A stretch of DNA of 64,000 nucleotides, taken from NCBI RefSeq assembly GCF_900112395.1, contig NZ_FOLN01000003.1:62001-126000 (forward strand), read 5' to 3'. The stretch comes from Algibacter lectus. GTDB lineage: Bacteria > Bacteroidota > Bacteroidia > Flavobacteriales > Flavobacteriaceae. Under the pieces are notes generated by a model. It had not been told where the DNA came from and did not search any database. It was given only the letters and a program-made list of their open reading frames with translations. This document shows, in pieces, positions 5,119 through 44,215 of this stretch. Position 1 is the stretch's first letter. Each line of letters begins with the position of its first letter. The translations under genes and the position numbers were made by a program.

Positions 5119-5988
5119 TTATTTAAAATCTATAAAATTTGTTGGATTAATAGGATAACCATCATTCCAAAGCTCAAAATGTAAATGTGGCCCAGTAGAT
5201 AACTCACCTGTATTTCCCGCAGTAGCAATAACCTCGCCTGCTTTTACCAAATCACCTTGTGCTTTTGTTAAACTTGCATTGTGCTTGTATACAGATATTA
5301 AACCATAACTATGCTCTATTATCGCCACGTAACCTGTACTAGCGGTCCATTCGGCAAAAATTACAATACCATCGGCTGTAGCCTTAATTGGTGTATCTTT
5401 TGCGACTACAACATCTACAGCATAATGCTTTTCTTTTACATTGTAAGATGCACTAATAGTTCCACTTGCTGGAGGAAATAATATAAAGTTGGTCGCCGAT
5501 GTTGCCGACTCAAACAAATTATATTTATCTTCTTTATCTACCTTTTCACGAAGCAAAGAATCGGCTGAAGACGGATTTAAATCTACCTCACTAGCCTCTA
5601 ATTGAACTGCTTGAATAATGGAATCTTTATCAAAATTTTCCGGGCTTAAATCTCCCTTTAAAACCTTTTTTATTGATGCATAATACAATTCATTTACCGA
5701 AATCGCTTTCTGTAAAGAATCCGTTTTATAATTCAATTCGGTAGCTTTTCTTTTCAATGCTGTTGAAGAATAACCAGGAATATACTCCCTAAGTGGTGTA
5801 AATGCAATTAAAGCATAAGTTGCTGCCACTAAAAATATAGCAGACACCGATATTAAAACAAACACATTTAAACGCGTTAAGTTAAGCGATAAACGCTCCT
5901 CAAACGTATTTTCGTTAAGTATAACAAGCTTATACCTATCAAGCAGTTTGCGTTTTATTTTCTTTGGCTTTTTCTTTTTTTCTTTCAT
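5119..5988 (-). CDS. Membrane-anchored M23 (LytM) peptidase
   Basis: 289 residues: a very basic cytoplasmic N-terminus, one membrane helix at about 41-63, a coiled-coil-like segment at about 75-110, and a C-terminal M23 domain. Zinc ligands are visible: H188 and D192 in HYAVDV and H268-x-H270 in GPHLHFELW. The domain should be catalytically competent, cutting peptidoglycan cross-links during growth or division. The gene lies back to back with tatA, with its start about 140 bases from the tatA start. The combination of a helix, a coil and an intact LytM domain is common in flavobacteria, where these proteins are usually annotated only as M23 family. Confidence 0.9.
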   Translation of the reverse strand: MKEKKKKPKKIKRKLLDRYKLVILNENTFEERLSLNLTRLNVFVLISVSAIFLVAATYALIAFTPLREYIPGYSSTALKRKATELNYKTDSLQKAISVNELYYASIKKVLKGDLSPENFDKDSIIQAVQLEASEVDLNPSSADSLLREKVDKEDKYNLFESATSATNFILFPPASGTISASYNVKEKHYAVDVVVAKDTPIKATADGIVIFAEWTASTGYVAIIEHSYGLISVYKHNASLTKAQGDLVKAGEVIATAGNTGELSTGPHLHFELWNDGYPINPTNFIDFK

Positions 5989-6102
5989 GTTAAAACAAAA
6001 ATAAATAGAATTTATTAAGTAATTACAAATTCAACTATTTAAATACGTGTTTGGCAATATGCTAAAGTTATGTTTAAAACGATGTTATTTAAGTTTAATT
6101 AT

Positions 6103-6110
6103 TAACTTTG
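6103..6110 (+). promoter_or_regulatory. -7 box of tatA
   Basis: TAACTTTG matches the Bacteroidota -7 element TAnnTTTG. A start of transcription a few bases downstream would leave a leader of about 13 bases before the ATG at 6130 and would sit only just upstream of the alternative TTG at 6121. I see no good TTG at the -33 position. Confidence 0.6.
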
Positions 6111-6129
6111 CAAAACAAAATTGAAAGTT

Positions 6130-6315
6130 ATGATGTTATCGAACATATTTTTAGGAATGATTGGGGCTCCACAAATTATTTTAATTGTAGTGGTTGTTTT
6201 ACTTTTATTTGGAGGTAAAAAAATACCTGAATTAATGCGCGGACTTGGTAGTGGAATTAAAGAATTTAAAGACGCTAGTAAAGAAGAAGATACAGCAAGC
6301 AACAAAAAAGAATAA
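6130..6315 (+). CDS. tatA: Sec-independent (Tat) protein translocase subunit TatA/E
   Basis: A 61-residue protein with one N-terminal membrane helix (IILIVVVVLLLFGGKKIPEL), the hinge FGGKKIPELMRGLGSGIKEFK and a charged amphipathic and acidic tail, which is the TatA/E pattern. TatA oligomers form the passage for folded proteins carrying a twin-arginine signal. The ATG at 6130 (or the adjoining one at 6133) is preferred to the upstream TTG at 6121, which would lie at the very 5' end of the predicted transcript. No tatC is in the window. A candidate Tat substrate, the GH43-like lipoprotein at 21784-22899, is present. Confidence 0.92.
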   Translation: MMLSNIFLGMIGAPQIILIVVVVLLLFGGKKIPELMRGLGSGIKEFKDASKEEDTASNKKE

Positions 6316-6330
6316 AACTAATTTTAGTTT

Positions 6331-6373
6331 AAAAAAAAGACCAACATTTCATGTAAATGTTGGTCTTTTTTTA
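6331..6373. terminator. Bidirectional intrinsic terminator between tatA and the DUF4837 gene
   Basis: A 12-base-pair perfect stem (agaccaacattt at 6338-6349 against its complement at 6355-6366) with a 5-base loop, A-run on the left and T-run on the right, so it can end transcripts from both converging genes. Confidence 0.85.
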
Positions 6374-6388
6374 TGCTGTTTTCTTAAC

Positions 6389-7396
6389 TTACTTTATTTT
6401 AACCGATCTAATAATAGCTTCAAGTTCCAACATATAGTTACGTTTTTCTACCGATGGTGCGAAAGCAAAACCTTCAATAACTACCCAACGTTTATTAATT
6501 TTATCTTCAATAGCATAGTTAATAAATGGTCCGCCCATAAAATCGGCTTTTAAATCCCACAAACCCTTAGTCTCTAAAGTTGGCTTATTATCTACAATAG
6601 TTTCACCATGAAAAGGCGTATACGCGTTCTCAGTAATCATATACGACTCTATTTTATCACCGTTAGCCTTTAACTCACCGTCTTGTCTTCCTCGAATGTA
6701 TAATTCACCAACAGAATCTCTTACTTTTATAATTTGATTAACCACACTATCATTTCGCGTTATTGCATCAAACGGTAGAGTATAAATCATTAAATTATTA
6801 GTTCCGGTTGTTATCTCTTTTCTTACCCAAAAGAAATTATCACTCTCCTTCGCTATTCTATAAATAGAAGGAAAATCAATGGTTAATCCCAACTTTTCTT
6901 CTATAGATGTATGCGTGTGATTAGATTTACTCATTTGACGCAAACGCTCCGTAAGCTCGACATTTCTGAAAGTTTCAATAATTTTATCGGCATTTGCATT
7001 AAGCGTGCTAATAATCTCTTCTCGTGTTTTCCCCGAAACGGTAATTACTTTTTGGGGCTTTGCATACACATCATCAACATATTTAATTCCAGCTTCTTTA
7101 TTCGGAACAATCTTTAAAATCGTTCTGTTTTTAGTTACAAAACCAGAGAAAACCGATGCCGGAATCTGACTTACAGAAAACATAGGCTCATCTTGCGGAA
7201 GTCCATAAATAGGTGTTCCCAGTATATTTCTAATCGCTTCTCCTACACTACCGTCCCATAAATCGTTACCTAAAACCACAGAAACATGACTAATATTTCC
7301 AGAAGAATCTGGTAACATAGAATTATCTGAAGTTTTCTTATCGCCACAAGACACTAATAATATTAAAGCCATGGCAGAAAAAATAATTTTTCGCAT
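6389..7396 (-). CDS. DUF4837 family lipoprotein
   Basis: 335 residues starting with a lipoprotein signal: MRKIIFSAMALILLVSCGDKK, lipobox LVSC with Cys17. The remainder matches my recollection of the Bacteroidota-only family DUF4837: a globular, mixed alpha/beta protein with DLWDGSVGEAI near the N-terminus and FWVRKEITTGTNNLMIYTLPF in the middle. Function is unknown. The protein should be attached to the inner or outer membrane facing the periplasm. It lies downstream of the MltD-like transglycosylase on the same strand (17-base gap), so the two are probably co-transcribed and a cell-wall role is plausible. Confidence 0.8.
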   Translation of the reverse strand: MRKIIFSAMALILLVSCGDKKTSDNSMLPDSSGNISHVSVVLGNDLWDGSVGEAIRNILGTPIYGLPQDEPMFSVSQIPASVFSGFVTKNRTILKIVPNKEAGIKYVDDVYAKPQKVITVSGKTREEIISTLNANADKIIETFRNVELTERLRQMSKSNHTHTSIEEKLGLTIDFPSIYRIAKESDNFFWVRKEITTGTNNLMIYTLPFDAITRNDSVVNQIIKVRDSVGELYIRGRQDGELKANGDKIESYMITENAYTPFHGETIVDNKPTLETKGLWDLKADFMGGPFINYAIEDKINKRWVVIEGFAFAPSVEKRNYMLELEAIIRSVKIK

Positions 7397-7413
7397 AATG
7401 ATATATTGTTTTT

Positions 7414-9000
7414 TTAAAGTTTAGCTATTTTAAGTTTCATACCTATTTTCAATTTACTACCACTAATACCGTTCCATTCTTTAATATCTTGAACAGAAAC
7501 TTCAGGAAATTTTTGAGAAATACTCCATAACGAATCTCCATCACTTACCGTATAATAAACTACCTCGCCTTTAATAGGCTTTATTTTAACAGCTGCCTTT
7601 GGTGCGCTAGATGTTGAAGTATGAGGTTTTTTAGGGAAAATAGTTAATCGCTGCCCAATTTTTAAGCTATTACTACGTAAGCCATTCCAACGTTTTATAT
7701 CACTAACCCTAACCGCATACATTCTAGAAATTTTACCTAAGTAATCGCCAGATTTTACACGATAGGTAATTTTATCATCCGCCTCAAAAAATTGCGGTAA
7801 TGGTTTTTCTCTTTTTTCAAATTCCGCTTTAGCGTAAGCATAAATAGAATCTTCATTATTTACAAAGGTTCCTATCACTTCATTTGGTAACCTTAAGCTA
7901 TAATTTTCTTCTTTTATAAAAGGAACAACATCTAATTTATATGAAGGATTTAAGAACTGTAATTTCTCTATAGGCACACTTGTAACTTCCGAAACTTGAT
8001 CTAAGGTAATCATACGTTTTACACGAATAGTATCGGTTTCAAAATATGCTATTTCGGGTTTATACTTTGTAAACCCATGCTCTTCTGCATATTCAAAAAT
8101 ATACATGTTTGCCAAAAAAGCAGGTAGATATCCAGCTGTTTCACGTGGTAAATTATGTCGAATATTCCAATAATTCCTGTAACCTCCAGAACGCCTAATA
8201 GCTTTAGAAACGTTTCCTGGTCCCGAATTATAAGCAGCTAAAGCCAAATCCCAATCACCAAAAATACGGTACAAATCTGATAAGTATTTAGAAGCCGCTA
8301 TTGTGGATTTTATTGGGTCGCTACGCTCGTCTACATAACTACTAACGTCTAAGCCATATTGCTTTCCGGTAGCAAACATAAACTGCCACAAACCGGTAGC
8401 GCCAACTCTAGATTTTGCACGAGGTTTTAATGCAGATTCTACAATGGCCAAATATTTAATCTCTAAAGGAATATTTTGATTATCTAACTCACGCTCAAAC
8501 ATCGGGAAATAAAATGCACTCGCCGTAATTAATGTTTGTAAATGACGCCTTCTATGCTTTAAATACGACTTTATAACACTTTCTAACGATGGATTATATT
8601 CCACATTAAAAGGTGTACGCGCATCAAGCCTTTTTAAGCGCGCTTTTAAAGTGTCTGTAGATAATTCAGGGTAATCAACAGGATCGTACTTTAACTCGCT
8701 TACAGACTTGTAAATAGTATCATAAAGGGCATTGCTATACAGTTCTTCCAACCACTTTTGGTCAATTTTAGCCGCGTAAGCATCATCTTTTAATGTTTTG
8801 AAAGACAAACTATCTTTTAAAACCAAGATTTCTTTAACACCTTGCGTTGTTCTATCGATTAAAGAATCTTGCATCATGCTCGTTTTCTGAACAAGGGAAT
8901 CTTTAACTTTTACGCCTTGTACCAATGTAGAATCGGCCTTTTGAGCATAACAAAAGCTAATATTAAAGATAAATAAAACTATATAAAATCGGAAATTCAT
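7414..9000 (-). CDS. MltD-like lytic transglycosylase with two LysM domains
   Basis: 528 residues: signal peptide (cleavage after FCYAQ, about residue 20), a spacer, a lysozyme-like SLT domain at about 170-300, and two C-terminal LysM peptidoglycan-binding repeats at about 410-455 and 483-527. The SLT motifs are complete: catalytic Glu188 in AIVESALKPRAKS, then GATGLWQFM, and AAYNSGPGNVSKAI. The enzyme cuts the glycan strand of murein, forming 1,6-anhydro ends. It heads a two-gene unit with the DUF4837 lipoprotein. The order of domains is that of E. coli MltD, but there is no Cys at the signal cleavage site, so it is probably a periplasmic rather than lipid-anchored form. Confidence 0.92.
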   Translation of the reverse strand: MNFRFYIVLFIFNISFCYAQKADSTLVQGVKVKDSLVQKTSMMQDSLIDRTTQGVKEILVLKDSLSFKTLKDDAYAAKIDQKWLEELYSNALYDTIYKSVSELKYDPVDYPELSTDTLKARLKRLDARTPFNVEYNPSLESVIKSYLKHRRRHLQTLITASAFYFPMFERELDNQNIPLEIKYLAIVESALKPRAKSRVGATGLWQFMFATGKQYGLDVSSYVDERSDPIKSTIAASKYLSDLYRIFGDWDLALAAYNSGPGNVSKAIRRSGGYRNYWNIRHNLPRETAGYLPAFLANMYIFEYAEEHGFTKYKPEIAYFETDTIRVKRMITLDQVSEVTSVPIEKLQFLNPSYKLDVVPFIKEENYSLRLPNEVIGTFVNNEDSIYAYAKAEFEKREKPLPQFFEADDKITYRVKSGDYLGKISRMYAVRVSDIKRWNGLRSNSLKIGQRLTIFPKKPHTSTSSAPKAAVKIKPIKGEVVYYTVSDGDSLWSISQKFPEVSVQDIKEWNGISGSKLKIGMKLKIAKL

Positions 9001-9221
9001 AAAATCTGTTCAGTTCGTTATTCAACGATGTTATGGCTAAAGTCGTGTTTTTTTATGAGAATTAGAAAACTAAATATTAATTACTTTCTAATTCAAAAAA
9101 AACAAAGCATGTTAAAACGTCCGTAAACACTACAAAACCATCTTTTTAATTCTAAAAACAACTCTAAAACCTCACCGCAAAATATATACCAAAATTTAGC
9201 TTAAACGAAACTAATACGTAC

Positions 9222-9274
9222 AAAAAAATCACCTTAGACTCTTTCAATAAAAAAGAAAACCAAGATGATTTTTA
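9222..9274 (-). terminator. Intrinsic terminator of pgk
   Basis: Read on the minus strand, an 11-pair stem (AAAATCATCTT against AAGGTGATTTT, one G-U pair) encloses about 30 bases and is followed by a run of T. It lies 23 bases after the pgk stop codon. Confidence 0.65.
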
Positions 9275-9296
9275 TATCCTTAAAACGATATACTGC

Positions 9297-10484
9297 CTAT
9301 TCTAAAATAGCAGCAATACCAGGAAGTGTTTTTCCTTCTAAGCTTTCTAACATAGCACCACCACCAGTACTTACGTAACTTACTTTATGCTCAAAACCAA
9401 ATTGCTTAACAGCAGCAACAGAATCTCCACCACCAACTAAAGAAAACGCTCCTTTTTTAGTAGCTTCGGCAATAGAATTCCCTAATTCTATAGTTCCACC
9501 AGCAAAACTTTCCATTTCAAAAACACCTAATGGCCCATTCCAAAGTATGGTTTTACATTGCATTACAACATCATGAAATTGTTTTCTAGATTTTGGTCCA
9601 GCATCTACACCTTCCCAACCATCAGGAATTTCGTTAATATCAACAATTTGTGTATTAGCATCGTTACTAAAATCATCTGCAGCAACAGTATCTACAGGAA
9701 TATGAATTTGAACGTTTTTCTCTTTTGCTTGTTTTAAAATATCTAAAGCTAAAGGCATTTTATCATCCTCACAAATAGAATTACCAATTTTACCACCTTG
9801 TGCTTTTACAAAAGTAAATGCCATACCACCACCAATAATAAGGTGATCTACTTTATCCAAAATGTTTTCGATAATAGTAATTTTAGACGATACTTTTGCT
9901 CCTCCAAGAATAGCTAAAACAGGCTTCTCCCCAGTTTCCATTACTTTATTAATACTTTCTATTTCTTGTGCTAATAAACTACCAAAACATTTTTTACCGT
10001 TAAAAAATTGAGCAATAATAGTTGTAGATGCGTGCGCACGGTGTGCTGTACCAAAAGCGTCATTCACATAAATATCACCTAACTTAGATAGTTTTTCAGC
10101 AAAATCTTTATCTCCAGCAGTTTCCTCTTTGTAAAAACGTAAGTTTTCTAATAATAAAACTTGTCCTGGCTCTAAGCTTGCAGCAGCAGCTTCAACATCT
10201 ACACCAACACAATCGGCAACTGTTTTAACTTCAACACCTAAAATATCTTCTACTTTACTAGCAATGTGCTTTAAAGAAAACTCATCTTGAAAACCTTTTG
10301 GACGACCTAAATGAGACATTAAAATACAGCTTCCACCATCTTCTAAAATTTTAATAATTGTTGGTTTTGCAGATACAATTCTCGTAGCATCAGTAACTTC
10401 AAACTTATCATTTAAAGGCACATTAAAATCTACGCGAATTAATGCTTTTTTATTCTCGAAATTAAAATCGTTAAGCGTTTTCAT
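9297..10484 (-). CDS. pgk: Phosphoglycerate kinase
   Basis: 395 residues, the normal size. It transfers phosphate from 1,3-bisphosphoglycerate to ADP in glycolysis and works in reverse in gluconeogenesis. Seen: RVDFNVPL near the N-terminus, SHLGRPKG (about residue 58-65), [14 protein letters not shown] (about 140), [10 protein letters not shown] (about 194), and the nucleotide-binding [16 protein letters not shown] close to the C-terminus. A single-gene transcript is likely, with its own -7 box upstream and a terminator downstream. Confidence 0.98.
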
Positions 10485-10521
10485 TTTATTTATATGTTTT
10501 AATTTTTAACTATTTGATTCA

Positions 10522-10529
10522 CAAATGTA
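10522..10529 (-). promoter_or_regulatory. -7 box of pgk
   Basis: On the minus strand the sequence reads TACATTTG, an exact TAnnTTTG match, about 38 bases before the pgk start codon. No convincing -33 element is seen. Confidence 0.6.
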
Positions 10530-10690
10530 ACTAAATAAACAGCCATTTAAAACGTGTTTTTTAACGAAAACGATGTAGCGAAGCGATAATTTTTAAAAAC
10601 TAGAAATGTACACTCTAGATACAACCCGTTTTAGTAGATATTCATAGATAAATTACAAAAAAATAACTAAATTTTATGTACGTTTGTTTC

Positions 10691-11845
10691 ATGCTTTTTA
10701 AAGATGTTTTAGGTCAAGATCACATAAAAAACCATTTAACCACGAGTGTTGATAATGGACGAATTGCACACGCGCAATTATTTGTAGGTAACGAAGGTTC
10801 GGGTACATTACCCATGGCTATCGCTTATGCACAATACTTGCTATGCTCAAATTCTGGAGGAGAAAACACCTCTGGAAACGAAGCTTGCAATTTAAAATTT
10901 AATAGTATTTCGCATCCCGATTTACACTTTGCTTTTCCGGTAACTACCAGCGATAAAGTAAAAAGTAAACCGGTGTCTAGTTTTTACTTAGAAGAATGGA
11001 GAAAACTTTTAAAAGAACAACCTTACGGAAACTTATTCGATTGGTACAAACTACTTGGCGTAGATAATAAACAAGGCCAAATTGGTGTAGACGAAGCGCT
11101 AAATATTGTAAAATCGCTTACACTGAAGTCTTACGAAGGCGGTTATAAAGTCATGCTTATCTGGATGGCCGAAAAAATGAACGGCGCCTGTGCCAATAAG
11201 CTTTTAAAGCTAATTGAAGAGCCACCAAATAAAACCGTTTTTATATTAATTGCTGAAGAAGAAGAGCAAATTATAAACACCATACGTTCGCGTTGTCAAA
11301 TTTTACACTTTCCGCCACTAGCCGAAGATGTTATTGTAGACGCGTTAGTGAAGCAATTTAATATTGATAGAAATGTAGCTACTAAAATAGCACACCAAAG
11401 CAATGGGAATTACAATAAAGCATGCGATTTAGTATATCAAGATACCGAAGATAACCAGTTTGAAACTTGGTTTATTATGTGGATTCGAAGCGCCTTTAAA
11501 GCTAAAGGAAACAAGGCTGCTATTCTAGATTTAATTTCTTGGAGTGAAGATATTGCTAAAACAGGACGTGAAACTCAAAAGCAATTTTTAAACTTCTGTT
11601 TAGACTTTTTTAGACAAGCTTTACTACTTAATTATAAAGCTGATGATTTGGTGTTTTTTGAACCTAAATCTGATAAATTTAAGCTAGAAAATTTTGCTCC
11701 TTACGTACACGGAAACAACATTATGGACATTAGTAATGAGCTTCAAGATGCCATCTACCATATAGAACGTAACGGAAACTCTAAAATTATACTTACCGAT
11801 TTGTCTATAAAACTAACGCGTTTACTACATAAAAAAGCAGATTAA
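10691..11845 (+). CDS. holB: DNA polymerase III delta' subunit
   Basis: A clamp-loader subunit: AAA+ fold at about 1-210 followed by a helical collar region. Seen: VLGQDHIKNHL at the start, a degenerate P-loop (VGNEGSGTLPMA, lacking the Lys-Thr of Walker A, as usual for delta'), Cys residues in the zinc-module region (CSNSGG to ACN), KLLKLIEEPP, and the SRC motif in IRSRCQIL. I prefer the ATG at 10691 (MLFKDVLGQ) to one five codons upstream at 10676, because family members begin close to this segment. A TACGTTTG at 10679-10686 resembles a -7 box but is too near the start for a firm claim. Convergent with the OmpH-like gene. Confidence 0.93.
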   Translation: MLFKDVLGQDHIKNHLTTSVDNGRIAHAQLFVGNEGSGTLPMAIAYAQYLLCSNSGGENTSGNEACNLKFNSISHPDLHFAFPVTTSDKVKSKPVSSFYLEEWRKLLKEQPYGNLFDWYKLLGVDNKQGQIGVDEALNIVKSLTLKSYEGGYKVMLIWMAEKMNGACANKLLKLIEEPPNKTVFILIAEEEEQIINTIRSRCQILHFPPLAEDVIVDALVKQFNIDRNVATKIAHQSNGNYNKACDLVYQDTEDNQFETWFIMWIRSAFKAKGNKAAILDLISWSEDIAKTGRETQKQFLNFCLDFFRQALLLNYKADDLVFFEPKSDKFKLENFAPYVHGNNIMDISNELQDAIYHIERNGNSKIILTDLSIKLTRLLHKKAD

Positions 11846-11873
11846 AAACGTTTTAAACTAGTTAGTTTACAGC

Positions 11874-11914
11874 ATAAAAAAAGGCCTATTAAATTATTTA
11901 ATAGGCCTTTTCCG
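11874..11914. terminator. Bidirectional terminator between holB and the OmpH-like gene
   Basis: Long stem: aaaaggcctattaaa pairs with tttaataggcctttt around a 3-base loop, with A-run and T-run on the two sides. Confidence 0.85.
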
Positions 11915-11931
11915 TTTTATAATCTAAAAGC

Positions 11932-12462
11932 TTATTCTGCTTTCTTATAATCAGCATTGATAGCTTCAACAATTGCTTTAGTAAGATCGCTTTTCTCTTC
12001 ACCGTACATTACTGTAGCAGCAGCTTCGCTAGTTCCTAAGATATAGTTATAACCATTTGTTTTACCGTAAGCCCCAACAAAATCTTTAACTTTTACAATT
12101 ACAGAATCTATATCTGCTTGAAAAGCTTGTGTTAATTGTTGTTGTTCAACTTGCATTTGCTGTTGTAACTGTTGTTGTTTTTGCTGTAAACCCGTCATTA
12201 ACTCCTCTGCTTTTTTTCTATTGCTTCTAGCAATTCTTTGCGCTTCGGCTTGTGTTTTTTGAGCTTCTGTTTGAAAAGCTAATCCAATACTATCTGCTCT
12301 TTTTCTAAAAGCTTCATCTTTAGCTTTGTATTTTACTTCTAAGTCAATTTTTTCTTGATAATCATTAATAACGACTCCGTTATCTACAAATCCAATTTTA
12401 TTTGGTTTTTCACAAGATGCTAAAACAAGCATCGCGATGGCAACATAAAGTATGTTCTTCAT
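11932..12462 (-). CDS. OmpH/Skp-like periplasmic lipoprotein
   Basis: 176 residues. The signal MKNILYVAIAMLVLASCEK has a lipobox (LASC, Cys17). A long coiled-coil arm rich in Gln, Lys and Glu follows (about residues 55-115, with QQKQQQLQQQMQVEQQQL), then a C-terminal segment GKTNGYNYILGTSEAAATVMYGEEKSDLTKAIVEAIN typical of the Skp/OmpH family. Skp is a trimeric chaperone that carries outer-membrane proteins across the periplasm. The lipid anchor differs from the soluble E. coli protein; lipidated versions are common in Bacteroidota. Own -7 box upstream; appears monocistronic. Confidence 0.88.
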   Translation of the reverse strand: MKNILYVAIAMLVLASCEKPNKIGFVDNGVVINDYQEKIDLEVKYKAKDEAFRKRADSIGLAFQTEAQKTQAEAQRIARSNRKKAEELMTGLQQKQQQLQQQMQVEQQQLTQAFQADIDSVIVKVKDFVGAYGKTNGYNYILGTSEAAATVMYGEEKSDLTKAIVEAINADYKKAE

Positions 12463-12507
12463 TTTTATTTTTTTTGATTATATTTTGGTTAATTTTTTTA
12501 ATCCGAA

Positions 12508-12515
12508 CAAATGTA
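12508..12515 (-). promoter_or_regulatory. -7 box of the OmpH-like gene
   Basis: Reads TACATTTG on the minus strand, about 46 bases upstream of the start codon. Confidence 0.55.
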
Positions 12516-12713
12516 ATAAAGTAAGCTTTAAAACATCATGTAATTATTCGGATTTTAACATATAACAAAAACTTATACCGATTTAAAGTCTAAATAAATA
12601 ATTACTATCAAAAACAGCTTCATATAAAGCGCTCTAAGCGATTTAAAAAAAACCGACTTATATTTAGACGTTATAACGTTAAATAATCTAAAATAGATAG
12701 CTAAAAATAATTT

Positions 12714-13574
12714 TTAGCTGTTTTTAATGATATAAATTAACGAAGAAGCCTCTTTTGAGCTTATAGATTTCAAGTTAGAACGTAAACCGTACCAAAATCC
12801 TTTAACCGGATTCATCTTGCCTGTTTTATATTTTTCAGAAAGCATACTCACATAAAACGCATCAAACAGCATGGGTTTTGTTTTTACAACACTCATGTTT
12901 TGTTTAGAAACTAAATTAGAAATAGAAACTTGATTAAAATGCCAAAGATGTCTAGGCACATCAAATGCCGCCCAAAATTCTTTATAGTGTTTTGCATCAA
13001 AACTTTTGTAATTAGGAACAGCAATAAGTAAAGTTCCGTTGTCTTTTAAAAGTGTTTTAAAGGTTTTTATATGATCTTCTAAATTCGGTAAATGTTCCAA
13101 AACATGCCAAAGCGTAATAACATCAAATTGTTTCGATTCAAATTTTTGAAGTTGTTCTGTATCAAAAACAGACTTATTTGTTTTACTATTCGCTATACCT
13201 CTAGCCTCTTCGTTTGGTTCAATACCAGAAACCAACCAACCATTTTGTTGTGCGGTTTGTAAAAAATCACCTGTACCACAACCTACATCTAAAAGCTGTT
13301 TTGCTTCCGAAGAAAAAGAATTAATAAGCTTAAGTTTCTTTTTTAGTGAAATACTTCTCACCAAATGATACACCTTTTCGAAGGCATTTCTCTTAGAATC
13401 GGTGTGTGAAATATAATCTTCACTTTGATAATACCCAGGTAATTTATCTAAAGTTGGTTGCGGTGTAGTTTCTAAAAAACCATATTCTTGGTTTTCTATT
13501 AACTCAAATTCTTCTCCAGAAACAGAATAATCTTTTACTTTTAAGTACTTATTTGTTGATTGATTTTTTACCAC
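12714..13574 (-). CDS. Class I SAM-dependent methyltransferase
   Basis: 286 residues. An N-terminal segment (about 1-80) precedes a Rossmann methyltransferase core: LLDVGCGTGDFLQTA (SAM motif I, about residue 90-104), SGIEPNEEARGIA (acidic loop), DVITLWHVLEHLPNLEDHI (motif with the conserved HVLEH), and TLLIAVPNYKSFDA. These are the features of Methyltransf_11/23 type enzymes acting on small molecules or lipids; the substrate is unknown. A hairpin made of AGCTAAAAA and its complement (12699-12719) overlaps the stop codon and could weakly terminate transcription. Flanked on both sides by long gene-free stretches, so probably monocistronic. Confidence 0.88.
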   Translation of the reverse strand: MVKNQSTNKYLKVKDYSVSGEEFELIENQEYGFLETTPQPTLDKLPGYYQSEDYISHTDSKRNAFEKVYHLVRSISLKKKLKLINSFSSEAKQLLDVGCGTGDFLQTAQQNGWLVSGIEPNEEARGIANSKTNKSVFDTEQLQKFESKQFDVITLWHVLEHLPNLEDHIKTFKTLLKDNGTLLIAVPNYKSFDAKHYKEFWAAFDVPRHLWHFNQVSISNLVSKQNMSVVKTKPMLFDAFYVSMLSEKYKTGKMNPVKGFWYGLRSNLKSISSKEASSLIYIIKNS

Positions 13575-38106: not shown

Positions 38107-38406
38107 CTAAACCACCATAACTGCTGTACCGGTAATAGAGACTATAATAATACCCGAATTTGGCATCGTTTCTATATCTAACGCAATACCAACAACGGCA
38201 TTTGCGCCTAATTTGTTAGCATTAGCATGCAGTTTTTGAAAAGCTGCTTCCTTTACTTCATTGATTTTATTCTCGTAATTTTCGTAATATTTTTCCATAT
38301 TAAACGAAATTGTAGTTTTTGGCATATTAACATCTACGCCACTTACAACACCTAAATAGTTTTTAATGCTGTGTCCTTCAATAGTGTTTGTTGTTGTTAA
38401 AATCAT
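38107..38406 (-). CDS. YbjQ/UPF0145 family protein
   Basis: 99 residues, cytosolic. MILTTTNTIEGHSIKNYLGVVSG and KLGANAVVGIALDIE are the signature segments of the YbjQ family, which forms pentamers and is often annotated as a heavy-metal-binding domain. No Cys residues are present, so metal binding is not obvious from the sequence. It is divergent from the Cys-rich peptide gene and separated by 198 bases, giving a possible shared regulatory region. Confidence 0.85.
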   Translation of the reverse strand: MILTTTNTIEGHSIKNYLGVVSGVDVNMPKTTISFNMEKYYENYENKINEVKEAAFQKLHANANKLGANAVVGIALDIETMPNSGIIIVSITGTAVMVV

Positions 38407-38604
38407 GTCTTTATCGTTTTGTTTATAAGTATAAAAAACCGCAATAAAGTTACAGTTATTTACTATTTTTTGAAAATATGTGTTAAAAACAAGCTTTAGT
38501 ATTTTTAATTGAAATAAAATGTTAAAAAAGAATTAAATCGAATAAAAAATGTATCTTTTTTAACCTTCGCCAGTCTACTTAGTGAATAATAAAATTTAAA
38601 TGCT

Positions 38605-38718
38605 ATGAATAATTGTAAATGCACAAACTGTAGTTGTACTAATTGCAACTGTACAAATTGTTTAGAAAGTAAATGCCTTTGCGAAAAATGCGAATGCGAT
38701 ACATGTAACTGTTGTTAA
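38605..38718 (+). CDS. Metallothionein-like 37-residue Cys-rich peptide
   Basis: 37 codons from ATG 38605 to TAA 38716-38718, encoding 14 Cys. From residue 4 the Cys follow a regular C-x-C-x2-C rhythm (CKCTNCSCTNC, NCTNC, then CLCEKCECDTCNCC after LESK), the spacing of metallothioneins that bind zinc, copper or cadmium as thiolate clusters. No signal peptide. Upstream blocks AACCTT (38562-38567) and GTCTAC (38573-38578) resemble ECF-type promoter halves, but the 5-base gap is too short for the usual geometry; TATCTTTT nearby is a near -7 match. A terminator and a SigZ-like gene follow. The alternative is a Cys-codon leader peptide controlling the sigma gene. Confidence 0.75.
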   Translation: MNNCKCTNCSCTNCNCTNCLESKCLCEKCECDTCNCC

Positions 38719-38727
38719 ACCCAATAT

Positions 38728-38757
38728 AAGGTTAGTTTTAAAACTAACCTTTTTTTA
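38728..38757 (+). terminator. Intrinsic terminator between the Cys-rich peptide and the sigma factor
   Basis: A perfect 24-base palindrome (38728-38751: aaggttagtttt and its complement) followed by T-run. It ends only 9 bases before the sigma factor ATG, so it can act as an attenuator for that gene. Confidence 0.85.
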
Positions 38758-38766
38758 TTTTTGAAT

Positions 38767-39297
38767 ATGGAAACCCAAAACATATGGAATACTTTCAACG
38801 ACGAACTTTATTTTTTTATACTTAAACGTGTAAAAAATAAAAACGATACCAATGATATTTTCCAAAATACCTTTTTAAAAATTCATAAAAATCTAGATAA
38901 ACTTAAAAATGAAGAAAAAGTAAAAGCTTGGATTTTTCAGATTGCTAGAAATGAAATTACAAACCACTTTAATAAAGAGGCTCTTTATGCAGGTGAAGAA
39001 GTAAATACTAACAAAGAAATTTCTCAAGATATTAATGAAGACGTATGTTGTTTTGACCGTTTTATAACCGATTTACCAAAAATTTATCAGGATGTTATTG
39101 AACTAGTTTACATTAAAGGCTTAAAACAAAAAGAAGTAGCGAGTACTCTAGATATAAGCCTAGAAAATGTAAAAGCTAGAATAAAAAGATCTAAGGAAAT
39201 TTTAAAAACAAATTTTAAGGCCTGTTGTAAATACGAATTGGATAAAAAAGGAAACTTAATTGGTGAGCCCGATTGTACCATTTGTAATCCTTGTTAA
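38767..39297 (+). CDS. SigZ-like ECF RNA polymerase sigma factor with Cys-rich tail
   Basis: 176 residues. I choose ATG 38767 (METQNIWNTF), as a TTG two codons upstream lies at the foot of the terminator. Region 2: LYFFILKRVKNKNDTNDIFQNTFLKIHKNLDKL, AWIFQIARNEITNHF; region 4: LPKIYQDVIELVYIKGLKQKEVASTLDISLENVKARIKRSKEIL. Then a tail with CC and C-x2-C-x2-C spacing (FKACCKYELD, PDCTICNPC), and a CC at the linker (NEDVCCFDRF). The Cys-rich end is typical of the SigZ group and suggests metal or redox sensing in place of an anti-sigma factor; none is adjacent. Promoter must be upstream of, or inside, the terminator. Confidence 0.85.
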   Translation: METQNIWNTFNDELYFFILKRVKNKNDTNDIFQNTFLKIHKNLDKLKNEEKVKAWIFQIARNEITNHFNKEALYAGEEVNTNKEISQDINEDVCCFDRFITDLPKIYQDVIELVYIKGLKQKEVASTLDISLENVKARIKRSKEILKTNFKACCKYELDKKGNLIGEPDCTICNPC

Positions 39298-39695
39298 TAA
39301 CTTCTCGAAACCTTTAAAAATTAAGACAAATCGAAGCTTTTTTACAAGAAATAAGTATGATTATGTGATTTTTTCTAGCCTCAAAATAACAAGAAAAATG
39401 TGGTGAAATATTTAGTTATACCTCTTTAAAATTTCATCCAAATACTTATAAAATGTTGATAGTCATGTCGACGTATGCAGACATCACTTAACGAAAAGTT
39501 TTTTTGAAGCAATGATAAAAAAGGACAAAAAAAACCATTCAATTAACCAAAAACGCAATAAATATGTGCGTTAGGGATTGAACGGTTTGTTTGAAATCCT
39601 TTTTGTTTTTTCTTTCAAAAACAAAAAGATTGAGTAGTGAAAGCCCGACTCTAACTGCGCCTTAAAAGCGCGGTTAGAGTAATGCACAACTTATT
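39298..39695. other. Gene-free region (398 bases) with a structured element
   Basis: No protein gene seen. The left 230 bases are unremarkable and AT-rich. The right part (39531-39681) holds three hairpins described as a separate feature. Confidence 0.7.
39531..39681. repeat. Structured intergenic element, candidate dispersed flavobacterial repeat or RNA
   Basis: Three hairpins in about 150 bases: (1) AAACC-a-TTCAAT (39532-39543) and AACGCA (39552-39557) pair with TGCGTT (39567-39572) and ATTGAA-c-GGTTT (39577-39588); (2) a T-run/A-run stem around 39599-39629 (CTTTTT..AAAAAG); (3) CTCTAAC-t-GCGC with GCGC-g-GTTAGAG (39650-39680). The core gggattgaa..gaaagcccgac reminds me of repeats dispersed between genes in flavobacterial genomes. 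Strand and function unknown; hairpin 3 lacks a T-run and is a weak candidate for the rnr terminator. Confidence 0.55.
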
Positions 39696-43294: not shown

Positions 43295-44215
43295 ATGAGC
43301 CACAACCACGGGCATAATCATTCGCAGCATCACCATCATGATATGAAGGATAAAAATCTATTGATTTCTATTCTCTTAAATATCGTTATTACGGTAGCTC
43401 AAGTTATTGGTGGTTTAATTTCTGGTAGTCTATCTTTATTGAGTGATGCGCTTCATAATTTTAGCGATGTTATTTCGCTAGTAGTAAGTTATCTAGCTTC
43501 AAAATTATCTAAAAGGAAAGCCTCCGAACACCGTACGTTTGGTTATAAACGAGCAGAAATTTTAGCAGCTTTTATCAATGCATCTACATTAGTAATTGTT
43601 GCTTTTATTTTAATTAAAGAAGCAGTAGTGCGGTTTCAAAATCCGCAGGTTATCGAGTCTAACTTAGTTATTGTTTTAGCCCTGTTAGCTATTGCTGGTA
43701 ACGGTTTTAGCGTGTTGTTGTTAAAAAAAGATGCCGGTAATAATATTAATATCAAATCGGCTTATATTCACCTATTAACCGATATGCTGGCTAGTGTAGC
43801 CGTATTTATTGGTGGTATGTTAATGAAATATTACCAGCTTTTTTGGGTCGATAGTTTATTAACATTTCTGATAGCTTTGTACTTAATTTGGGTGGGTTTT
43901 GATCTTTTAAAGACTTCTACCAAAATGTTGATGCTATTTACACCCGAACATATTGATATTAATAGCCTAGTTAGTGATGTTAATAAGTTCGAAAAGGTGA
44001 AATTATTGCACCATGTGCATATCTGGAATTTAAGTGATAATGAGCTACATTTAGAGGCGCATTTGGATTTAGAAGAAAATGTGTTAATAACTGAGTTCGA
44101 TGCTATTTTAAGTAGGATAGAAACTTATTTACATGAAAATCATGATATTAACCATGTTACTATTCAGCCAGAATTTGATAAAAACGACTCTAAAGACATA
44201 ATAGTACAAGATTAA
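43295..44215 (+). CDS. Cation diffusion facilitator family metal exporter
   Basis: 306 residues: His-rich N-terminus (MSHNHGHNHSQHHHHDMKDK) that can bind metal, about six membrane helices, the CDF signature SLSLLSDALHNFSDVISLVVSYLA, with HxxxD metal site, and a second site in YIHLLTDMLASVAVF. The C-terminal cytosolic domain contains HHVHIWNLSDNELHLEAHLDL. Such CzcD/ZitB-like proteins export Zn, Co or Cd against protons. It may be relevant to the metal-related genes at 38-39 kb, though not in an operon with them. Confidence 0.93.
   Translation: MSHNHGHNHSQHHHHDMKDKNLLISILLNIVITVAQVIGGLISGSLSLLSDALHNFSDVISLVVSYLASKLSKRKASEHRTFGYKRAEILAAFINASTLVIVAFILIKEAVVRFQNPQVIESNLVIVLALLAIAGNGFSVLLLKKDAGNNINIKSAYIHLLTDMLASVAVFIGGMLMKYYQLFWVDSLLTFLIALYLIWVGFDLLKTSTKMLMLFTPEHIDINSLVSDVNKFEKVKLLHHVHIWNLSDNELHLEAHLDLEENVLITEFDAILSRIETYLHENHDINHVTIQPEFDKNDSKDIIVQD

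Follow-up and report, generated by a model that had tools for sequence, protein, structure and literature searches.

The locus

A short, unannotated frame directly upstream of a sigma factor gene of Algibacter lectus, rich in Cys codons, raises the question of whether it is a gene, whether it belongs with the sigma factor and, if so, to what signal the pair would respond. The first-pass annotation of the window (the whole stretch of 64,000 nucleotides analysed here) had proposed a metal or thiol response locus that began at 38107 and took in a YbjQ protein, this peptide and the sigma factor, with a CDF metal exporter nearby. The 37-codon frame with its 14 Cys was retrieved, and the Cys cluster closing the sigma factor (CC, C-x2-C-x2-C), the ybjQ-like gene and the CDF gene were found as well; a promoter-like element, a hairpin and a second peptide–sigma pair in the genome come in addition to what had been described. 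The features discussed below are:

38107–38406: YbjQ gene (PF01906)
38551–38578, + strand: ECF-type promoter-like element, GTATCTTTTT (−35 like) and GTCTAC (−10 like), the latter N17 from GTATC
38605–38718, + strand: metallothionein-like peptide gene, 37 amino acids, 14 Cys
38728–38751, + strand: hairpin with T run resembling an intrinsic terminator, in the gap separating the peptide and sigma genes
38767–39297, + strand: ECF sigma factor, SigZ-like; linker CC, C-terminal CC-x15-C-x2-C(-x2-C)
43295–44215: CDF gene (PF01545)

Conservation and extent of the unit

A scan of named genomes with an alignment of the sigma factor confirmed 449 relatives, the best 80 of which were taken as the listed loci; the closest named relative among them is Algibacter miyuki (91% sigma identity). 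Among these 80, a peptide with the same Cys pattern lies directly upstream of the sigma gene in 48 of the 49 loci with a sigma identity of at least 41%, and in none of the 31 loci of weaker ECF genes. Eight other ECF loci of the same genome (L009–L016) have no such peptide. Since 48 of 49 listed related loci carry it, the pairing is beyond chance, and the supposition that the two genes belong together is borne out; the lack of conservation among relatives that would have spoken against the first proposal does not hold. The peptide is present in all five genomes of the genus, that of A. lectus included, and comes in two designs, type I (that of the window), usually of 37 amino acids with 14 Cys, and type II, usually of 33 amino acids with 11 Cys. 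Of 299 family genomes, 54 encode the sigma factor (E ≤ 1e-25), 17 match the type I profile and 47 the type II profile, and none matches both. The sigma gene adjoins the peptide in 16 of 17 genomes with the type I profile. In G226 the peptide has no sigma in its vicinity, and G229 encodes a type I sigma but lacks the peptide. Peptide loci occur in Flavobacteriaceae, Weeksellaceae, Crocinitomicaceae, Cyclobacteriaceae, Flammeovirgaceae, Spirosomataceae, Roseivirgaceae and Saprospiraceae, and another contig of the A. lectus genome holds a second pair, with a 40-amino-acid peptide containing 14 Cys and a sigma factor 51–52% identical to that of the window. Comparative sequence evidence thus indicates that peptide and sigma are one conserved unit, widespread in Bacteroidota.

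Some peptides stand alone. Twelve loci (L183, L185, L187–L189, L191–L197), mostly from small genomes of the family, encode peptides of type I or II accompanied by neither sigma nor promoter-like element, and at L190 (2006–2107) a type II peptide in which several Cys are replaced by Tyr or Phe is accompanied by a decayed element, with no sigma nearby, and looks like a module in decay. In viral contigs, 45 stretches matched a pattern and none was confirmed. Nine plasmid records encode a sigma factor at 28–33% identity; in the three plasmids examined, the (incomplete) plasmid gene table has no metallothionein-named gene adjoining it, and in a Hymenobacter plasmid the sigma gene lies 2 kb from arsC and ACR3.

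The unit is smaller than first proposed. YbjQ and CDF were considered as parts of the module, and a tblastn search of the 49 listed loci with the window's YbjQ, DUF2807, CDF and RNase R proteins returned only L067, a same-genus Algibacter locus and the sole one (1 of 49) with YbjQ and CDF beside the module. The ybjQ and CDF genes are, by this comparison, bystanders, and ybjQ falls outside the unit, which therefore does not begin at 38107. When 728 ORFs of at least 70 amino acids across the 49 loci (with at least 5 kb on either side in 36 of them) were clustered, no family besides the sigma was found in more than seven loci; neither a conserved third gene nor a conserved anti-sigma gene was thus seen, in keeping with the earlier remark that none is nearby. 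The neighbours of type I modules in these 49 loci have no recurrent metal theme. In three of them, what resembles by eye an ArsR/ACR3 arsenic operon lies within 8 kb.

The peptide as a protein product

The peptide carries its Cys in the order C-x-C-x2-C-x-C-x2-C-x-C-x2-C-x4-C-x-C-x2-C-x-C-x2-C-x-C-C, with neither His nor aromatic residues. It alone among the window's 156 ORFs of 25–60 amino acids (counted by a script that read each ORF from its first ATG) has at least 10 Cys, and none of the 1565 such ORFs in the 31 loci of other ECF genes does. In the type I alignment of 19 diverse relatives, 13 Cys columns are invariant and the 14th is conserved at 90% or more. For 36 distinct genes, each exactly 37 codons long and drawn from the 48 listed peptide loci, pN/pS is 0.16 overall, calculated on the 138 pairs that differ at less than 22% of bases, with one row off-register with the Cys columns; pN is 0 at the Cys codons, where TGT and TGC do replace one another, and the non-Cys codons give a pN/pS of 0.34. 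The low pN/pS and the conserved Cys columns indicate that the peptide is under protein-level selection and hence a real protein product.

The peptide has the attributes by which a metallothionein is recognized, being very small, with a high share of Cys, CxC and CxxC motifs and conservation at the protein level, and its Cys thiolates probably bind metal. In size, Cys content and motifs it resembles SmtA/NmtA, MymT and PmtA; unlike these, it finds neither a Pfam or NCBIfam family (E ≤ 1) nor a PDB sequence (E ≤ 10), and thus matches no described prokaryotic metallothionein family profile in these three collections.

The promoter-like element and its predicted regulon

A GTATC-N17-[GA]TC[TA] element precedes the peptide in all 48 listed peptide loci, the first base of its second part lying 29–33 nt from the peptide ATG; a slightly stricter form, likewise present in all 48, occurs once elsewhere in their 1,422,714 strand positions. 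All 13 type II modules examined have a sister form, GC[AG]TC-N17-GTCT, so that the −35 letters track the group: GTATC in type I, GCATC (once GCGTC) in type II and mostly GCGTC in the rest. In the 4.8-Mb genome of A. lectus, GTATCYTTTT-N12-GTCTMC occurs exactly twice, once before each peptide–sigma pair, with no further hit at one mismatch and 19 at two (reversed control, 12). With up to one mismatch, 21 genomes gave 36 hits, of which 20 precede modules (every module there) and 16 lie elsewhere (control, 11). Four of these 16 are exact, one before a TonB receptor in G229, one in G223, one 150 nt before a lipoprotein-looking ORF (L211) and one within an ORF (L219). A larger regulon was considered and set aside, the off-module hits being near the control level, and given the near absence of further promoter copies the predicted regulon of the sigma factor consists mainly of its own module.

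Co-occurrence of sigma and element is the strongest sequence indication, short of proof, that the sigma reads this promoter. Fifteen peptide loci had been chosen for having no listed sigma in the genome; two of them, L184 (with a shortened sigma) and L186, proved to have a sigma adjoining the peptide, and the element was present in these two only, the other 13 lacking both. We infer from this that the sigma reads the element.

A peptide-less branch carries the same element. At L107 of Zunongwangia pacifica the peptide is missing and a type I element precedes a PF01545 Cation_efflux gene, which lies directly upstream of the sigma gene and whose protein ends in CCCD; a divergent ORF resembling a TonB receptor (so called by its likeness to the scanned receptor of L210) follows a second copy. 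The element precedes TonB receptors in both peptide-less loci L107 and L029, and G229 has a copy ahead of a TonB receptor, about 2.3 kb away from its sigma gene. The L107 and G229 sigmas form a clade with support of 100/100 in a tree whose bootstrap was not settled. The L107 stretch (5743–13091) lies between ORFs that resemble, by eye, a MobB-type relaxase and a TraG/MobC-type coupling protein, which makes a mobile element the probable location of this peptide-less variant; its TonB receptor is apparently split into two ORFs.

The second module of A. lectus adjoins genes for a Fur-family protein, MerC (PF03203), a TonB receptor, a DUF4374 protein and an ABC transporter. In its locus (L234, 8191–17724) this cluster lies on one side and a short Arm-DNA-binding (recombinase-type) ORF on the other.

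The hairpin

Past the peptide stop, 40 of the 48 listed loci have a stem of 7 bp or more and eight do not, and 38 of the 40 stems have at least four T among the next eight bases. Compared with mononucleotide shuffles of up to 40 first bases past the stop, 41 of the 48 stretches fold better (z < −2). The 40 stems contain 34 distinct pairs of 7-bp arms, from which it follows that the arms covary. As a terminator, the hairpin would favour the peptide as the main product and leave the sigma factor to read-through. In Mesonia profundi (L083), an insertion of about 200 nt between the peptide and sigma genes keeps the two hairpin arms apart. An Rfam scan gave three matches, all under the gathering score; one of them, in the gap between the sigma and RNase R genes (39562–39654, + strand), is to Flavo-1 RNA, at a sub-threshold 28.6 bits for a gathering score of 42.

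The sigma factor as a candidate sensor

The sigma factor, for which ATG 38767 is the more likely start (TTG 38761 also being possible), matches sigma regions 2 and 4 above the Pfam cut-off. Its top NCBIfam models are two SigZ models (SigZ family, TIGR02959 / PRK09637), with scores of 157 and 143.4 bits that lie under the respective curated cut-offs of 212 and 168.65, so that it is SigZ-like and falls outside SigZ as these cut-offs define it. Across 50 aligned sequences, C94 of the linker pair (residues 94–95) and C153, C154, C170 and C173 of the tail are invariant, and C95 is conserved at 90% or more; the L025 sigma, which stands outside this alignment, is without the last conserved Cys. In the AlphaFold model (mean pLDDT 81.2, pTM 0.42) regions 2 and 4 are visible, a low-confidence linker (residues 74–92) ends immediately ahead of the CC pair, and the tail CC stands at the end of the last helix, beyond which a short tail carries C-x2-C. 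At this pTM the model is too uncertain to place the linker and tail Cys together or to tell whether they would share a metal. A fold search returned ordinary ECF sigma structures.

The conserved Cys residues suggest direct sensing, since CorE and CorE2 of Myxococcus xanthus (formerly ECF44, now ECF238) and OrbS of Burkholderia cenocepacia, which have Cys in their tails, are described in the accessible parts of PMC8999054 and PMC9023288 as sensing Cu, Cd/Zn and Fe directly. As these sources describe them, the window sigma shares with all three the lack of an anti-sigma gene and Cys near the C-terminus, and with CorE and CorE2 in particular Cys in the linker as well. The analogy is weakened by the Cys pattern, which is unlike all three: the linker has CC where CorE-type proteins have CXC, and the tail reads CC-x15-C-x2-C, compared with C-x4-C-x2-C-x-C in CorE, CC-x3-C-x2-C-x-C in CorE2 and C-x2-C-x3-C-x5-C in OrbS (PMC8999054, PMC9023288, both in part). 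The sigma thus lacks the combination of CXC linker and CorE or CorE2 tail by which, in these excerpts, ECF44/ECF238 would be recognized. With its linker and tail Cys and no anti-sigma partner, it would work in the manner of CorE and is, by analogy, a plausible direct metal sensor.

The wider SigZ-like family and arsenic genes

In a wider set of 23 further SigZ-like loci (L156–L174, L198, L200–L202; L199 was omitted as the same place as L164), a sister element, GC[AG]TCYTTT-N13 followed by GTCT, GTCA or GACT, is present in 16 and absent in seven (L157, L159, L161, L163, L165, L200, L201). The background of this pattern is 0 in 828,382 strand positions of the 31 other ECF loci and 2 in 1,455,758 of the type I loci. 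At ten loci (L158, L164, L166–L168, L170–L174) an element of the GCGTCTTTTT type lies about 28–57 nt before an ArsM-like gene (L158, L166, L168) or an ArsI/CadI-like gene (L164, L167, L170–L174), and the SigZ-like sigma is directly upstream of the arsenic gene. The NCBIfam scan covered L158 and L168 for ArsM and L164 and L170 for ArsI/CadI, the latter two scoring above the cut-off, and the remaining names were given by visible similarity. Elsewhere the element precedes the sigma gene itself (L162, L198, L202), a MATE-like gene (L160) or a PhzF-like gene (L169), the last two named by eye. L163 alone of the 11 arsenic-linked loci is without the sister element, which is also missing from the mer-linked L165, with its ArsR-type regulator and MerTP. 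At L157, L159, L161, L162 and L201, other small Cys-rich peptides (26–45 amino acids, with different Cys patterns) lie directly downstream of the sigma gene.

The sigma tree comprised 100 rows; omitted were L003–L005 and L017 (the module in other members of the genus), the near copies L072, L096, L099, L101, L102, L113 and L114, then L151, L153, L157 and L161, and four of the six intended outgroup rows; L159, L162 and L201 represent the loci with other Cys peptides. Its bootstrap was not settled; type II forms one group (99/89), and type I and the arsenic-linked loci each need three label changes.

It is possible that the sigma controls an arsenic response in the ArsM- and ArsI/CadI-linked loci. 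We see about an even chance that the Bacteroidota SigZ-like ECFs are one family of anti-sigma-less soft-metal(loid) sensors that share one promoter code, G[TC][AG]TC-N17-GTCT, with −35 letters set by clade, and that the code has been wired to varied metallothionein-like peptides or to ArsM and ArsI/CadI. The window module would then be the minimal form, with a regulon of about its own metallothionein and a peptide that strips metal from the sigma.

A proposed self-contained metal-stress module and its alternatives

The reading that we favour, and consider likely, is a self-contained metal(loid)-stress module made of a metal-sensing sigma factor, its own promoter, a metallothionein-like peptide and feedback, a self-amplifying unit that probably turns on its own expression upon entry of a thiol-seeking metal or metalloid into the cell. 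The sigma would bind the thiophilic metal(loid), with As(III)/Sb(III), Cd, Zn, Cu and Hg as candidates, through the linker CC and the tail CC-x15-C-x2-C; in its metal-bound, active form it would start transcription with RNA polymerase at its own promoter, GTATC-N17-GTCTAC. On the resulting transcript the Cys-rich peptide would come first and the sigma second, the terminator-like hairpin would let only some polymerases pass into the sigma gene, leaving the peptide in excess, and the peptide would sequester the metal, withdraw the signal from the sigma and so close the loop.

Such a module is supported by the peptide upstream of the sigma in 48 of 49 listed loci, compared with 0 of 31 weaker ECF loci, by the element in 48 of 48 listed peptide loci with its sister form in 13 of 13 type II modules, and by the position of both exact copies in the own genome before modules. 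That the signal would be a thiophilic metal or metalloid is suggested mainly by the kinship of the sigma to SigZ-like sigmas wired to arsenic genes, whose sister element precedes ArsM- and ArsI/CadI-like genes; it is further suggested by the element before a Cation_efflux gene and TonB receptors in the peptide-less branch, and by the Fur-family, MerC and TonB receptor genes beside the second own copy. Against the module stand a structural model (pTM 0.42) that cannot co-locate the linker and tail Cys, the eight of 48 listed loci without a hairpin of at least 7 bp, type I neighbours without a recurrent metal theme, the 16 of 36 promoter-pattern hits that lie off-module (control 11), four of them exact, and the lack of the sister element at arsenic-linked L163 and mer-linked L165. 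Of the metal or thiol response locus first proposed, the function stands as the likeliest role, with the sigma as a plausible direct sensor, and the membership of YbjQ and CDF does not.

Thiol chemistry could serve a different end, with the sigma Cys sensing disulfide or electrophile stress (possibly through loss of zinc) and the peptide as a thiol or zinc reservoir. The conserved Cys and the peptide suit redox sensing equally well and do not separate it from metal sensing, but related sigmas and the peptide-less branch are connected with arsenic enzymes, MerTP/ArsR, Cation_efflux and TonB genes and not with thiol-redox genes, and we regard a redox module as unlikely. ECF genes usually adjoin the gene of their regulator, which, together with the strict pairing in 48 of 49 listed loci, might speak for the peptide as a small metal-responsive anti-sigma factor (or activator) that binds the sigma directly, the real targets being elsewhere. 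This we hold to be decidedly improbable: related peptides occur without a sigma in 13 of the 15 loci chosen for having no listed sigma, and the off-module promoter hits are near the control (16 versus 11).

The hairpin and T run a few nucleotides past the stop codon and the 14 Cys codons in the frame also recall ribosome-mediated attenuation, in which a Cys-rich leader would couple cysteine supply to sigma expression. The strict CxC/CxxC spacing, the pN/pS of 0.34 even at non-Cys codons, the eight loci without a hairpin of 7 bp or more and the occurrence of related peptides without a sigma all argue against this, which leaves it a very slim prospect. In such a Cys-responsive leader the function would lie in the Cys codons and not in the product, which the protein-level selection and the sigma-less peptides speak against. 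The existence of free-standing peptides thus disfavours both an obligate anti-sigma role and a pure leader role.

Relation to known systems and meaning

The metal-responsive module that we propose would differ from known systems in what it controls and in how its peptide is controlled. The targets of CorE are a multicopper oxidase and a copper ATPase (PMC10141476, in part), whereas the predicted output here is a metallothionein-like peptide. Among known bacterial metallothioneins, MymT is under RicR (PMC10141476, in part) and Anabaena NmtA under the SmtB/ArsR-family AzuR (PMC8790569, in part), whereas the window peptide would be under a sigma factor and not a repressor. From SigZ, whose models are its best matches, the sigma differs by the additional C-x2-C tail, the linker CC and the partner peptide, although a CC after region 4 is common to it and to the Priestia and Vibrio SigZ sequences examined. 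ECF287 and ECF288 have a Cys-rich C-terminus and were suggested to act like CorE (PMC8999054, in part); the likeness to the window sigma is drawn from this description. A search of open-access titles and abstracts returned no SigZ-like sigma linked to metallothionein or arsenic genes, which may be described elsewhere. Predicted from its sequence, then, the module would be driven by an ECF of metal-sensing type, like CorE, and would be novel in a regulon consisting mainly of its own metallothionein-like peptide.

These results would give SigZ-like sigma factors, for which the open-access literature searched describes no signal, a concrete and testable role. They also add two conserved types of metallothionein-like peptide, I and II, the window's type I being without a Pfam or NCBIfam family. 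Finally, promoter, putative sensor sigma and buffer peptide would together form a very small natural circuit of about 750 bases, testable as one piece.
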